From a virus, in IMG/VR virus record IMGVR_UViG_3300048037_000295, positions 1 to 24,436 of that record: a DNA stretch of 24,436 nt. One strand, given 5' to 3'. Numbering within the stretch: position 1 is the stretch's first letter; the number at the start of each line of letters is the position of its first letter. The translations under genes were made by a program, and so were the position numbers. The notes under the pieces were generated by a model that searched no databases, was not told the origin of the DNA, and was given only the letters and a program-made list of their open reading frames with translations. This document shows, piece after piece, positions 4,136-9,023 of this stretch.

Positions 4136-4159
4136 AATATCCTTCCTATATATTCATAA

Positions 4160-4192
4160 TAGAGAAAAGAAATAAAGGGACCGATAGGTCCC
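4160..4192 (-). terminator. Intrinsic terminator-like hairpin with G(A/C)TA centre
   Basis: The stem GGGACC/GGTCCC (4177-4182 with 4187-4192) encloses GATA. On the minus strand it is followed by TTTATTTCTTTTCTCTA, an imperfect U-tract. It lies 8 bases after the stop of the 44-residue gene and upstream of the Rad52-like gene's ribosome binding site. It belongs to the palindrome family described in the findings. Confidence 0.7.
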
Positions 4193-4200
4193 GTTAATTC

Positions 4201-4335
4201 TTAACCTATTTTTTCTTTTTCTAAGTTAGTTATACCTCTTTCAATTGGCACTAGTTCAACTCTTTCATCTTCATATCTTACTATAAAGTAAGGTTGAGTC
4301 CCAATTCCAGCGTATTCTATTCCTATTACTTTCAT
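4201..4335 (-). CDS. 44-residue phage protein of unknown function
   Basis: This short frame lies between the phosphoesterase gene and the terminator-like hairpin. It starts at ATG 4335 and ends at TAA 4201-4203. The product (MKVIGIEYAGIGTQPYFIVR, then YEDERVELVPIERG and a charged end) reads as a small beta-rich domain. A competing frame from ATG 4342 is only 24 codons long and less protein-like. AGAAGG lies further upstream than ideal. Its stop sits 8 bases before a strong hairpin, which fits a last gene in its transcript. No family recognised. Confidence 0.55.
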   Translation of the reverse strand: MKVIGIEYAGIGTQPYFIVRYEDERVELVPIERGITNLEKEKIG

Positions 4336-4363
4336 TGCTTGACATACCTTCTGTTAATATGTA

Positions 4364-5419
4364 CTATACATCTTCCAATTTTACTAGATATTCTGCTGTT
4401 ACGCCAGTACCTGCCTTACAAAATAGTAACCATTGACATGGTCTACCCATGCTAGCTAACTGTTCTAATGCATATGTATTGTAACTTTCAGTACTACCAT
4501 TAACCCATAACCTTATATCATTAAGATACATTGTTGTAGGTGTATGAAAATGGCCTGCTACAGCGTTGTCAAAGTCTGGCATAAGACCATTAGCTGCTAA
4601 TGTTTTCCAACCTTGTAGCTTCTTACCGAAACCATACCATGGAAATCCACTAAAACCTCTCACATTGTCTCCGTGCCACAATAAAAACTTACATTCTTTA
4701 CCTAAATCAGCTATGTCGAACCAATGATTGTCTCCTGTACTGTCAGGTATTGTAAATTTTATACGCTTTTCATCTCTAAATACCATCTTCATGATGTTAC
4801 CTAGCATCCTATCAGCGTTAGAATCTGGATGATAGTCTTTACGACTACGACCACCTAAGTGGCCATGATTACCTATAACCCAATGAACATCTACTTCATT
4901 AAAGTTAGCAAGTAATATATCAAAGAACTTACCTATAATTCTAGGCCCATCAACTGTTACTTGTTTGTATAAGCTGCTGTCAATTAAATGTGATTGGCCT
5001 GGAAATATTAATTCACCTTCTATAATATCTCCAACTGCAAACACTGCAACTTTATTAACAGGATGAGATTGTCTTTGTACATTAGTAATGTCAACTATCT
5101 TTTTAGCATAAGCTATTACTCTTTCTTCTGCTACTTCTGTATTGTAATCAGGTGTAACTTTAGCAAGTTGTATGTCACTTAATACTGCTATGGCTATTTC
5201 TTCATCCTTAGTCTTCTTTAAGTTAGAAGGTTTAGGTATTGAAGGTTTGTCCCATGTTCTTAAGTTAGCTGATACTGCATCATATACTGCATCAACCATC
5301 TCTTCTTTTTTATTCTTTGACTTCTCAAGTTTTTTTAAAAGATTTAAGTTATCTTTTTTTAAATCTTGAATAACTTTAGATTCAACTTCAGCCATTAAGC
5401 TATCAATATCTTTAGACAT
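4364..5419 (-). CDS. Calcineurin-like metallophosphoesterase
   Basis: This 351-residue enzyme carries the ordered metal-binding motifs of the calcineurin-like superfamily: SDIQ (D82; the usual DxH has Q84 in place of His), VGDIIEGE (D131), GNHGH (N184, H185), WHGDN (H249) and AGHFHTP (H290, H292). Residues 1-50 are a charged helical region, probably a coiled coil. The family includes phosphodiesterases and nucleases of the SbcD/Mre11 type. In this phage a nuclease or nucleotide phosphodiesterase acting with the recombination genes is likely. It overlaps the small HTH gene by 8 bases, so the two are co-translated. Substitution of the first motif histidine occurs in some family members and may alter metal binding. 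Confidence 0.8.
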   Translation of the reverse strand: MSKDIDSLMAEVESKVIQDLKKDNLNLLKKLEKSKNKKEEMVDAVYDAVSANLRTWDKPSIPKPSNLKKTKDEEIAIAVLSDIQLAKVTPDYNTEVAEERVIAYAKKIVDITNVQRQSHPVNKVAVFAVGDIIEGELIFPGQSHLIDSSLYKQVTVDGPRIIGKFFDILLANFNEVDVHWVIGNHGHLGGRSRKDYHPDSNADRMLGNIMKMVFRDEKRIKFTIPDSTGDNHWFDIADLGKECKFLLWHGDNVRGFSGFPWYGFGKKLQGWKTLAANGLMPDFDNAVAGHFHTPTTMYLNDIRLWVNGSTESYNTYALEQLASMGRPCQWLLFCKAGTGVTAEYLVKLEDV

Positions 5420-5657
5420 TGTTATCCCTTTCTAGCTTTTGTAAGTATCTTCTTATTGCAGATTCAGATATTTCTATACCAAATTCATCATGCAATAACC
5501 TATGTACTACATAAGGTCTCATCTTTATTTTCTTTTTTACTATTCTATCTTTTAAAGCAATCCAAAAAGGTTCTGCTTCTGGAGTAATTCTATCCTCAAC
5601 ATAGTTACCTTTCTTTCCATGCTCTGCTTCATTAAGTAGTTCATCTATATTTGTCAT
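5412..5657 (-). CDS. Small helix-turn-helix-like protein paired with the phosphoesterase
   Basis: This 81-residue protein has a C-terminal half that reads as a helix-turn-helix: RPYVVHRLLHDEFGIEISESAIRRYLQKLERD, with the turn at FGIE and the recognition helix starting at SESAIRRYL. The pattern recalls domains that bind DNA through a short tri-helical unit. There is no Shine-Dalgarno sequence before the ATG, but a TATAAT box lies 6 bases upstream, so the message may be leaderless. It overlaps the phosphoesterase start by 8 bases. A DNA-targeting or regulatory partner for the phosphoesterase is likely by position. Confidence 0.65.
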   Translation of the reverse strand: MTNIDELLNEAEHGKKGNYVEDRITPEAEPFWIALKDRIVKKKIKMRPYVVHRLLHDEFGIEISESAIRRYLQKLERDNNV

Positions 5658-5663
5658 AAGATA

Positions 5664-5690
5664 ATTATAGTTGATTTAAAAAAAATACAA
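5664..5690 (-). promoter_or_regulatory. Candidate leaderless promoter for the HTH-phosphoesterase pair
   Basis: On the minus strand TATAAT (5669-5664) is a perfect -10 box. TTGTAT (5690-5685) could be the -35, but the spacer is 15 bases and therefore short. Transcription would start about 7 bases after the -10, that is at or next to the A of the ATG at 5657. No ribosome binding site exists there, consistent with leaderless translation. Confidence 0.5.
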
Positions 5691-5707
5691 GTAAATATAA
5701 AAGAAAA

Positions 5708-5786
5708 TGGTGGAGGTGGGAGGAGTTTAACCTCCGTTAGCATAATATCAACGGGTAGTTGTTTATGCTCTAACTTGGACACCCCC
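5708..5786 (-). ncRNA. tRNA-like structure with alanine-type acceptor (tmRNA-like 3' domain)
   Basis: Read on the minus strand, GGGGGTG (5786-5780) pairs with CACCTCC (5718-5712) as a 7-bp acceptor stem whose third pair is G-U, followed by discriminator A (5711) and an encoded CCA (5710-5708). A 5-bp T-stem GGAGG/CCTCC (5735-5731 with 5723-5719) carries a 7-base loop TTAAACT, close to the canonical TTCRANY. G1-C72, G2-C71, G3-U70 and A73 are the known identity set for alanyl-tRNA synthetase. There is no D-arm; a 6-base linker (TCCAAG) leads to a long hairpin, TTAG-AG-CATAA paired with TTATG-CTAA, closed by CAAC/GTTG around TACCC. This resembles the tRNA-like domain of tmRNA more than a decoding tRNA. 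The usual tmRNA tag reading frame and pseudoknots are not visible. Confidence 0.6.
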
Positions 5787-5800
5787 ATCCACAGATGGAA

Positions 5801-5854
5801 TACCGTGCTTAAGGTCGGAAAGGAGTACAACCCACTGTTGCCAGTTGCACGGTA
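5801..5854 (-). ncRNA. Three-way-junction RNA element just 5' of the tRNA-like structure
   Basis: On the minus strand an 8-bp perfect closing stem TACCGTGC/GCACGGTA (5854-5847 with 5808-5801) encloses two arms. One is ACTG/CAGT with a GCAA (GNRA) tetraloop (5845-5834). The other is GGTTG/CGACC with a 10-base loop (5832-5813). A TTAA linker closes the junction. A further small hairpin (CATC/GATG) lies between this and the acceptor stem. It sits in the only long gap inside the leftward block and is probably part of the same transcript as the tRNA-like element. I do not recognise the class. Confidence 0.55.
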
Positions 5855-5873
5855 CCCCTAATTTTCCTTCCTT

Positions 5874-7388
5874 CTATTGTAGCTGATTCAGTTGATAAGC
5901 AAACTCTTTTACTTCATCAACATCAGCTAGCCTAGTAATTCCTGAACGCTTACATTGTTCAATACAATCTTTTAATAAGTTATTTGAGTTTGAATTATGT
6001 AATCCAAAGACATACATATCACTAACCCATATTCTTTTAGGTGGTTGTTTAGCCAGCCAAGCTAACGCTGGGCCATCAACTAAGTTACCACCGCCAGTCC
6101 ATCTATCTAGATAGTCTTGATTAACTCTCTTACCATTTTGACCAATGATACGCAATGAACCTGTTTCCCAATCCTGACCTCTATCGTTATACATAGCAAT
6201 AGTAACTGCAGGTAACATCTGCATTATTTCTAGTATATCTTCGCCACTAAAGGACATAGAACCTGACGCATCTATTAGTATTGTTCCACCATATACTCTT
6301 TGTTTTTGTTTGAATACTTTTTTATCCACACACCAACGATTCATATACTTTGGATTTACACCGTAATCCATAGGCCTGTATTCTCTACCACCTTTAATTT
6401 TAGATTGTAGATTTACTTCAAGATGAGGTTTGAATATTTGCATCTTACCCCACTTACCTGCCATATCATTTAGATTAGGTTTATAATTCATATTACTATT
6501 ACTCTGAGATGTCATTTCAAACATCTGCTCTGCATTTCTAGACATTAATTCATCAAGTGAAGCTATATCATCACCTTCACCTTCTGAACTGTTACCACTT
6601 GTTTGCTTATTAGCACTATTAGCTTTTTGTTTAGCTAATGCAGCTTTTCTGGCTTGTTCAAGAACCTGTTCCTCTTTAGGTGGTTCACTAAACTGTTCCA
6701 TAAGTTTAAACAAGATTTTAGCTGCATTTCTAGTTTTAATATACTTACTAGGTTTTTTATAATAACCTCTAGTATATGTAATTCTTTCCCATAAATTATT
6801 TGCTTGTTTAAAGCACCAATTTATTTGATTGAGTCGCAAATTAGTTAATGCTTTTGCTGAGTCCCTAGGTATTTCTCTTAGGTCTTCAAATATTTCTATC
6901 AAAGATGCAAACTCTTTACTAGCTGGCCTTCTTCCAGAATAATAACTATTGCTATTAGTTTCTATAGGTGCCATACATATCATAATATATGAAACTATAT
7001 CGAACAAAGAACTATTATAAAATAAATCTATAGCTCTTTCTTCATGAATAGGTTGACATACAACCCAATCATCTAGATATATATCTTTTATACCTAAGTT
7101 ATAGTTAATACGAATTTCTTCACATATCTCAATGCATTTTTCATTCTCATTCTCTTTGAGTTTACCTACAGTTTTAGGACTCCACTTAGCATGGCCAAGT
7201 TCATGTCTTCTAATTTGTTTGTTATGGTTTGAACCACATAATGAACATAGTTCATCATCTGTAGGAACATACATTTCATGAGATAGAGTAGAAGTTCTAG
7301 GTTGATTTGCATCATCATAGATTTTCCATGGTCCCTCCCCAGAAGCTATTTCTGGAAAGGGTACCTTACTATTCTTCTTCTTGTACAT
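5874..7388 (-). CDS. HExxH metallopeptidase-like and VWA-domain protein, partner of the MoxR ATPase
   Basis: This 504-residue protein has a zinc-peptidase-like N-terminal region with HELGH at residues 62-66, preceded by CSLC (48-51) and followed by an acidic helix (ICEEIRINYN, E90/E91) that could give the third ligand. A low-complexity linker (about 240-300, rich in Q, A, S and N) leads to a C-terminal von Willebrand A domain. Its metal-ion site is visible as DASGS (373-377), T431 in TGGGN and D457 in VSDM. VWA proteins work with MoxR-type ATPases as metal-dependent chaperone pairs, as in CobS/CobT. The ATG overlaps the ATPase gene by 20 bases, which supports a complex. Both catalytic motifs look intact. 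The substrate is unknown. Confidence 0.75.
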   Translation of the reverse strand: MYKKKNSKVPFPEIASGEGPWKIYDDANQPRTSTLSHEMYVPTDDELCSLCGSNHNKQIRRHELGHAKWSPKTVGKLKENENEKCIEICEEIRINYNLGIKDIYLDDWVVCQPIHEERAIDLFYNSSLFDIVSYIMICMAPIETNSNSYYSGRRPASKEFASLIEIFEDLREIPRDSAKALTNLRLNQINWCFKQANNLWERITYTRGYYKKPSKYIKTRNAAKILFKLMEQFSEPPKEEQVLEQARKAALAKQKANSANKQTSGNSSEGEGDDIASLDELMSRNAEQMFEMTSQSNSNMNYKPNLNDMAGKWGKMQIFKPHLEVNLQSKIKGGREYRPMDYGVNPKYMNRWCVDKKVFKQKQRVYGGTILIDASGSMSFSGEDILEIMQMLPAVTIAMYNDRGQDWETGSLRIIGQNGKRVNQDYLDRWTGGGNLVDGPALAWLAKQPPKRIWVSDMYVFGLHNSNSNNLLKDCIEQCKRSGITRLADVDEVKEFAYQLNQLQ

Positions 7389-8142
7389 TTTTCAAGCTAT
7401 TGTCATGTATATTAACATCAGATAATTTAATAGCGTCAAGCAGTTCATCTGCTCTTTCACCAAATATTAAATTACCTGCCATTTTCATTTCAACACCACG
7501 TTGTTGTAACTCAAAGTATTCTCTCCAAGCTCTAACTGATACTCTATCTTCCATATTTTCTGTTAATGAAGTATCACTAATTACCTGATGCCATGTTTTT
7601 GGAAACATTTTTAATGCACTAGGGTGTATTGTATCTACATGTATTTTAACTGGGAACCTATCTTTAAGTGCCATGGGTAGGCTCTCTGGTAGGCTGTTAG
7701 TTGTAGCTATAACATTAAAACCTTTCTTTGGTCTTACTGTTTCTTTGTCGTCATTATTTAATGTCAACTGTGCTATATCTTTATCATCTAATACAGCATG
7801 TAAGAATGTCATAGCATCTGGTGAAGCGTGGTCAATTTCATTGACTACTAATCTTCCACCATTTCTCCATGATTGGATTGCTATACCATCATGCCATTCA
7901 AATCCACCTGACGAATTGGGTTTATAAAACCCTTCTAAGTTTGCACTAGCAGTGTCTTCTGTCATAGTAATTTGATAAACATTAGGTTCTCCACTCATGT
8001 TTAATCCTATTTTATTAGTTGCAGCTGCATATGTTTTACCAGTACCAGGTGGCCCGTATAACAGTATTCTATCTGCATTACCTATAGCTGATGCGACTTT
8101 GTCCCAACAAGTTATAGGTCCTTTCTCCATTGTTTCTTCCAA
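7369..8142 (-). CDS. MoxR-type AAA+ ATPase
   Basis: This 257-residue ATPase carries Walker A GPPGTGKT (30-37), a Walker B-like RLVVNEIDHA (97-106, where N101 replaces the usual Asp and E102 is kept), sensor 1 VIATTN (144-149) and an arginine-finger region (ALKDRF, R162). This matches MoxR/CobS-type AAA+ proteins, which remodel protein targets together with VWA-domain partners such as the overlapping downstream gene. The start is TTG at 8142, chosen because CAGGAG lies 6 bases upstream; the ATG four codons later is too far from that site. The Walker B Asp-to-Asn change may slow magnesium binding or hydrolysis. Confidence 0.8.
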   Translation of the reverse strand: MEETMEKGPITCWDKVASAIGNADRILLYGPPGTGKTYAAATNKIGLNMSGEPNVYQITMTEDTASANLEGFYKPNSSGGFEWHDGIAIQSWRNGGRLVVNEIDHASPDAMTFLHAVLDDKDIAQLTLNNDDKETVRPKKGFNVIATTNSLPESLPMALKDRFPVKIHVDTIHPSALKMFPKTWHQVISDTSLTENMEDRVSVRAWREYFELQQRGVEMKMAGNLIFGERADELLDAIKLSDVNIHDNSLKNVQEEE

Positions 8143-8470: not shown

Positions 8471-9023
8471 TTTTACCACTATTCTCTGTCATATCTTTAA
8501 GCCAATCTTCTGCTAAGTCACCAGTATGACTCATAACATGAGTAGTAGCTTCCATAGCTTTATCAATTAACTTATTTTCATTCTCTACAAGAACAACTTG
8601 TATTCCTGTAGGTTCACTAAAGAAAAATCTGTTAAATAATCCTGAGTTACCAACACTATTTAATACTTCTCCCATATCATCTGTACTTATTTCATCAGGT
8701 AAACAGTTCCACCAACCTGTCATAATAGAAGCTTTACGATAACTATCTAATCTCATCGCTGCATCTATTGCTTCTTTTGGTCCAACTGCATCAACTTCAT
8801 ATCTAGTCATTAATTCATCTGTTTCATTAAAATTTGCAAATCTATCTTTCCAAAAATTAACATATTCATCATCTTTTAGATAAGTTAAAACAACTGCATA
8901 TGCTTTTAAGTCTACATCAACAATTTTTACTGCATCGTGACTACCAAACATTGATTTTCCTACAAAATCATCGTTCAGTTCGTTACAATTATCACAGCAG
9001 TCTTCTCCGTCATGCTCACTCAT
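8454..9023 (-). CDS. Acidic phage protein of unknown function
   Basis: This 189-residue protein has an acidic, cysteine-bearing N-terminus (C9, C10 and C13) and an acidic C-terminus (ENSGKNDEQE). The middle contains aromatic-rich segments (YVNFWKDRFANF; TGWWNCLPDE) and looks globular. The start at 9023 is preferred over a longer frame that overlaps the upstream gene, because GAGAGGA lies about 10 bases upstream and the extension simply re-reads the neighbour. It overlaps the upstream zinc-ribbon gene by 8 bases. No known family. Confidence 0.65.
   Translation of the reverse strand: MSEHDGEDCCDNCNELNDDFVGKSMFGSHDAVKIVDVDLKAYAVVLTYLKDDEYVNFWKDRFANFNETDELMTRYEVDAVGPKEAIDAAMRLDSYRKASIMTGWWNCLPDEISTDDMGEVLNSVGNSGLFNRFFFSEPTGIQVVLVENENKLIDKAMEATTHVMSHTGDLAEDWLKDMTENSGKNDEQE

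Follow-up and report, generated by a model that had tools for sequence, protein, structure and literature searches.

An RNA locus on the minus strand of a viral genome, IMG/VR record IMGVR_UViG_3300048037_000295 (positions 1 to 24,436, all of which were analysed and are called the window here), consists of two independent modules: a tRNA-like domain (TLD), identified by covariance models as that of transfer-messenger RNA (tmRNA) minus the mRNA-like domain and pseudoknots, and a three-way junction (3WJ) RNA. Our favoured explanation, to which we give a probability of about 0.6, is a phage RNA gene that carries a promoter of its own and whose two-module transcript would join a TLD decoy that damps host trans-translation to a 3WJ RNA with an anti-Shine-Dalgarno (anti-SD) loop. 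The TLD form itself is already known from one phage, mycobacteriophage DS6A; what is new is its wider range and its fused arrangement with the 3WJ.

Two structured modules in one gap

The locus lies in a 216-base gap between the minus-strand open reading frames (ORFs) 5412–5657 and 5874–7388, and all RNA features described below are on the same strand. The structure in this gap is far above chance level, as the whole gap folds at −63.8 kcal/mol (z = −5.2) and none of 200 shuffled sequences was equally stable. Taken alone, the 79-nt TLD (5708–5786) reaches −27.9 (z = −3.9); the value for the 62-nt 3WJ (5797–5858) is −27.2 (z = −3.8). An initial annotation of the region had described a tRNA-like fold following a three-way junction, and this is confirmed together with its 7-bp acceptor, G3·U70, A73, T-arm and CCA; the extent it gave, 5708–5854, is right at the TLD end but cuts the 3WJ, which reaches 5858. 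That the TLD and the 3WJ are separate modules, and that the 3WJ is widespread, conserved and equipped with an anti-SD loop, goes beyond that annotation, whose interpretation is partly supported overall. ARAGORN finds 0 tRNA or tmRNA genes in the window, no Rfam family matches it at the gathering level, and a BLASTn search of isolated phages with the 241-nt region returned chance-level matches only.

A tRNA-like domain related to tmRNA

The TLD gene runs in standard order from 5786 to 5708 and is not permuted. Its acceptor pairs the 5′ strand GGGGGUG (5780..5786, including G3) with the 3′ strand CACCUCC (including U70), which together with A73 and the encoded CCA occupies 5708..5718; G1–C72, G2–C71 and G3·U70 are read directly from the sequence, and the acceptor pairs are 100% kept in the 15 distinct TLDs of the phage family. 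The T-arm GGAGG-UUAAACU-CCUCC (5719..5735) covaries (GGAGG, GGGGG, GCCGG, CUGGG and others). Described earlier as near-canonical, it is so in its 5-bp stem and 7-nt loop UUAAACU, but the window copy has A instead of C56; the loop of relatives is the canonical UUCGAUU. The window also encodes CCA, which some relatives only retain (L005, L008); in L006, L007, L009–L012, L017 and others, A73 is followed by CUA, CAA, CGA or similar.

Neither the D-arm nor the anticodon arm of tRNA-Ala is present in the fold. An extended hairpin (5736..5774) built from GUUA..UAAC and GCAUA..UAUGC replaces the anticodon arm and corresponds to helix 2 of tmRNA, and six of its nine pairs covary. Within it lies GCAUAA (5763–5768), once suggested to read as Ala-stop; relatives read GCATAT, GGATAT, GCTAAT or GGTTTA at this place, and we regard the reading as coincidence. 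No tag reading frame with a resume codon was found in the 79 nt, GCAUAA not being conserved, and pseudoknots PK1–PK4 are not present, the whole middle of the tmRNA model being deleted in the Rfam alignments. The window D-region, CCAAGUUAGA, can be set against the stemless tmRNA D-loop GGNUUCGAC, and the family shows a gradation from UUGGAUUAG in L012 through AGGUUAGA in L005 to CAAGUUAGA in the window, the canonical form being UGGAUUCGA. As a separate observation, this extended hairpin frequently bears a C-rich apex loop (UCCCC, ACCCG, CCCCUUU), as in L012, L023, L026, L044 and L009 and at about 5750–5754 in the window, which could pair with G-rich sites.

Kinship to tmRNA was assessed with two covariance models. 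In a permissive search, the Rfam tmRNA model RF00023 matched the window with 21.6 bits (E = 1.3e-7) over model positions 1–374 with the middle deleted. The same end-to-end match, again with the mRNA-like part deleted, reached 52.4 bits in L009 and 51.4 bits in L005, above the gathering threshold of 47, while L008 scored 36.9 bits (E = 4.7e-14). Model R2, a TLD-only model built without any sequence of the window's phage family, gave 48.1 bits for the window and 42–54.6 for its relatives, compared with 33.5–39.1 for seven viral tRNA-Ala controls. The TLD of tmRNA had been named as the closest analogue, with tag frame and pseudoknots absent, and both models bear this out, R2 ranking all family members above the controls.

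Conservation and distribution of the TLD

Relatives were gathered through the neighbouring exonuclease, for which a scan of viral contigs yielded 80 loci (L numbers), and pattern scans added more; three of the 80 (L002–L004) repeat the window RNA exactly. Conservation of the acceptor and T-stem in related phages, on which the initial annotation had made its proposal depend, is complete: their cells are 100% paired in 15 distinct TLDs of the same phage family. Compensatory cells number 27, where shuffled alignments give 8.2, and compensatory changes fall in acceptor pair 4–69, the T-stem and helix 2. G3·U70 is kept in 14 of the 15, although pair 4–69 flips; some search patterns had G3·U70 built in, but L002–L012, L017, L020, L023, L026, L029, L030 and L044 entered the set by way of the neighbouring protein and not of the RNA. 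R2 further revealed TLDs that do not adjoin a 3WJ in L012, L017, L023, L026, L029, L030 and L044, some of them 3–5 kb away. Six of these seven have the acceptor GGGCGUG/CACGUCC, in which 4–69 changes from G–C to C–G while G3·U70 stays, and L017 alone has A3–U70.

Altogether, 13 of 27 related phage records contain a TLD, and SmpB was found in none of the 27. The TLD starts about 6–10 nt past the 3WJ in the window, L002–L008, L020, L213 and L221, which leaves no room for a promoter; in L009–L012, L017, L023, L026, L029, L030 and L044 it lies kilobases from the 3WJ. A third structured element, a long stem (GCAACAUAUAGGUUCU...UAUGUGUUGC), immediately precedes the TLD in those relatives whose TLD does not adjoin the 3WJ (L009 at about 4140–4250, L012 at about 4290–4410 and L017 at about 4260–4390).

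Across several lineages, IMG/VR phages carry at least 44 distinct TLD-only RNAs of 57–85 nt counted to A73, none of which ARAGORN calls as tRNA or tmRNA. In this set a D-region that lacks a D-arm, a single hairpin and a T-arm lie inside an acceptor of the type GGGGNUG...CANCUCCA; many members have a textbook tmRNA D-loop, such as GGGGGUGUAAUGGAUUCGAUCUCAGUUUCGGCUGAGACACGGAGGUUCAAUUCCUCCCACCUCCACCA in L082; L157 reaches 72.7 bits to tmRNA at just 67 nt. By this layout the wider set is recognized as tmRNA TLDs in which a short loop takes the place of the mRNA-like domain and pseudoknots. Two isolated phages, Stenotrophomonas virus Jojan60 (L256 393–475, about 37,722–37,804 of ON045087; 61.8 bits to tmRNA) and Vibrio virus SBP1 (L258 359–433, about 8,662–8,736 of MK301608; 48.7 bits to R2), each have an unannotated TLD-only RNA near tRNA genes. 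The TLD-only tmRNA, earlier known from DS6A alone, proves to be common, and gene finders miss it systematically.

A three-way junction RNA with an anti-Shine-Dalgarno loop

The 5′ module (5797..5858) consists of a 12-bp closing stem P1, the hairpin P2 (ACUG-GCAA-CAGU, 5834..5845), whose GNRA tetraloop caps a stem that covaries in the family, and the hairpin P3 with its anti-SD-like loop. Covariance model R1 matches the window at 5796–5859 with 77.3 bits and detects a single 3WJ, always in the same place, in 71 of 76 related loci. With 94.2% of cells paired across 48 distinct 3WJs and both partners changed in 22 of 23 pairs, the 3WJ is a very well supported new RNA structure; its covariation score of 0.789 drops to 0.197 on shuffling and to 0.124 or less on sliding. 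Pairing of its loop with its own 5′ leader, considered on the strength of folds, was inconsistent across sequences and was rejected.

Just upstream of the 3WJ stands the −10-like hexamer TACAAT (5876..5881), with a weak −35-like TTGCTT (5897–5902) at a spacing of 15. A generic promoter scanner run on the window did not call this TACAAT, but TATAAT/TACAAT/TATAGT-type hexamers occur in nearly all of 54 distinct upstream regions, usually 2–17 nt before the 3WJ stem, and the 3WJ probably has its own promoter. Because of this upstream hexamer in nearly all loci and a T-rich stretch 3′ of the 3WJ in some, we conclude that the 3WJ is an independent small-RNA gene. Most 3WJs are unaccompanied by a TLD, and the 3WJ is absent from 58 related bacterial genomes and from the TLD-only phages of other lineages. 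As in the window, no Rfam family reached its gathering score in the relatives L067, L045 and L022, and a literature search, of incomplete coverage, found nothing matching; the 3WJ thus seems to be an undescribed, phage-specific RNA family. About 40 relatives, besides L045 (2670–2765), L067 (2768–2862), L031 (7310–7410) and L076 (7477–7575), have a second conserved structured RNA directly 3′ of the 3WJ (GUAGCAGAAUAGAGUGCAAGGAGAACUUGCAA...GUCAACA...CCUAUAGUGAACACUGCUAC). With 40 invariant columns and 8 compensatory pairs, and matching no Rfam family, it occupies the position that the TLD has in the window, and its records, among those searched, are without a TLD.

The host of these phages is likely a marine streamlined member of the Actinomycetota, on the basis of binning: the sole match of the 3WJ pattern in the genome collection was a phage contig binned in an Actinomycetota metagenome-assembled genome (MAG) of about 1.1 Mb. 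The same MAG contains a full-length tmRNA (162 bits) and SmpB, and the exonuclease is closest to that of Streptomyces phage Dagobah (47% identity).

The P3 loop UACUCCUUUC (5818..5827) is identical to the 3′ end of 16S rRNA over CUCCUUUC and complementary to SD sites of the type GAAAGGAG. In alignment A4 the apical loop reads (C/U)UCCUUUC in nearly all 3WJs while the stem covaries. These eight bases recur in the 16S 3′ end TGGATCACCTCCTTTCT, a string that 17 of 30 relatives of the MAG contain exactly; the 16S end was read from these relatives, as the tested pattern is absent in the host MAG itself. Hexamers of the GAAAGGAG type precede 20% of ORFs, compared with 4–5% in shuffles, and given this enrichment the P3 loop is complementary to the phages' own SD sites, with which it probably pairs. 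The loop base and the SD base also correlate: among relatives L002–L081, a loop base of C or U goes with an SD site of AAAGGAG or AAAGGAA at 50:29 against 10:43 (odds ratio 7.4). This correlation is suggestive, but lineage confounds it, as does a lesser bias in the same direction outside SD sites (odds ratio 3.2), and it was not used as proof.

Possible functions of the two-module RNA

By analogy with DS6A, the TLD is most likely a trans-translation decoy. According to the statements on DS6A in PMC4131195 and PMC11915505, both citing Mao et al. 2009, this phage has a 'TLD only' tmRNA, and a molecule like it strongly inhibits tmRNA in Escherichia coli whether or not it can be charged, perhaps through titration of SmpB; the decoy idea of the initial annotation fits this work as it is reported there. 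In the mechanism that we favour, RNase P and 3′ trimming or CCA addition would release from the transcript a tmRNA cut down to its TLD, with an Ala-type acceptor, a T-arm, a capped helix 2 and no canonical D-arm in its D-region. The released TLD would compete with host tmRNA for SmpB and, where G3·U70 is kept, also for alanyl-tRNA synthetase (AlaRS) and EF-Tu; as it has no reading frame, it could not complete trans-translation. The phage would thereby damp host trans-translation during infection, either sparing its own mRNAs and proteins from rescue-coupled decay or holding the rescue factors. The A3–U70 of L017 is in line with charging being dispensable. The 5′ module, a separate phage RNA, would capture SD sites with its anti-SD loop, and both modules would be fused into a single transcript in this phage subgroup.

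The comparison with DS6A (tmID 11587) is one of description, and published inference for the DS6A form, as far as it is summarized in these sources, is likewise SmpB titration and tmRNA inhibition. The window TLD is distinguished by its degenerate D-region, its bulged helix 2 with GUUA/UAAC and its fusion to the 3WJ, and within its related group TLDs stand at differing genome positions. With full-length tmRNA (RF00023) it shares an acceptor with G3·U70, A73, the T-arm, helix 2 and the lack of a canonical D-arm, but it has no mRNA-like domain, tag frame or pseudoknots and measures 79 nt against about 350. The tmRNAs without a coding sequence (CDS) of jakobid and oomycete mitochondria and the forms of about 65 bp of Mallomonadaceae plastids also do without a tag reading frame (PMC11915505); unlike the window RNA, they are organellar, come mostly from permuted genes, rely on cell-supplied SmpB and have no phage context. 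The permuted two-piece tmRNA of phages such as Melnitz (PMC9004378) is likewise encoded by marine phages, but is complete with its tag, whereas the window TLD is in standard order and has none.

Several observations weigh against a tmRNA-derived decoy. The window's score to RF00023 falls below the gathering threshold that L005 and L009 pass; the canonical D-loop core and C56 are missing from its copy, and this loss may impair contacts with SmpB or AlaRS; and about half of the related records, some being fragments, lack a TLD. In addition, CDS-less mitochondrial tmRNAs are kept together with SmpB (PMC11915505), and this co-retention suggests that such RNAs might have some positive role in rescue.

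That last point leads to the alternative of a minimal working rescue RNA, in which an alanylated TLD with host SmpB would enter the stalled ribosome, take the nascent chain and free the ribosome without tagging. The retention of G3·U70, A73 and the T-arm agrees with it, as does the co-occurrence with SmpB in mitochondria, yet the RNA offers no stop codon for ribosome recycling, one relative has A3–U70, and inhibition of E. coli tmRNA by a similar molecule, charged or not, is what PMC4131195 reports; we consider this role unlikely. A decoy for AlaRS or EF-Tu, or a sink for alanine, acting independently of SmpB, would account for the full alanine identity set of G3·U70 and A73, for a T-arm fit for EF-Tu and for G3·U70 in 14 of 15 TLDs. 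It is nevertheless improbable, given the loss of G3·U70 in L017 and a D-region that resembles tmRNA and not tRNA, which suggests selection linked to SmpB.

We hold in similarly low regard the proposal that the TLD is a processing signal by which RNase P sets the 3WJ RNA's 3′ end. Where the TLD follows the 3WJ by 6–10 nt, RNase P cleavage would free both RNAs, since the short spacing leaves no room for a promoter; however, most 3WJs have no TLD, many TLDs are located kilobases from the 3WJ, and in other lineages the TLD-only phages lack a 3WJ. RNase P processing may be a by-product, not the reason for the TLD, and as its purpose, which the initial annotation had entertained, it is not upheld. 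Finally, a degenerate tRNA-Ala or the attP remnant of a phage integrating into host tmRNA is highly improbable, for although some isolated mycobacteriophages carry the tmRNA 3′ half alone beside an integrase (L260), here the RNA retains both halves and helix 2, all covarying, the D- and anticodon arms are lacking, ARAGORN finds nothing, and a tyrosine integrase (PF00589) occurs in 0 of 27 related records, on which ground we reject an attP origin.

Returning to the decoy and its partner module, we offer a broader proposal only tentatively: that probable marine Actinomycetota phages encode a new RNA showing the host 16S anti-SD in a rigid 3WJ, in some members fused to a tmRNA decoy, and thus possess an RNA-only toolkit that captures mRNA SD sites and blocks ribosome rescue. 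If this is true, a single transcript manipulates both the initiation and the rescue of host translation. The loop by itself suggests a direct mechanism at SD sites, and since the TLD-only form is common, phages might generally use RNA decoys for counter-rescue.

Neighbouring genes

The gene downstream of the RNA locus (5412–5657, 81 aa) has an apparent promoter of its own, TATAAT-N6-ATG, and no SD site (window 5654–5700 and homologous sites), and its mRNA is probably leaderless. On the other side, the ORF 5874–7388 encodes a 504-aa protein whose sole match is a phage family of unknown function, phrog_33218; it has a DASGSM motif and a VWA-domain-like appearance, and is the partner of the adjacent MoxR/AAA_5 ATPase (Pfam PF07728) encoded at 7369–8142.
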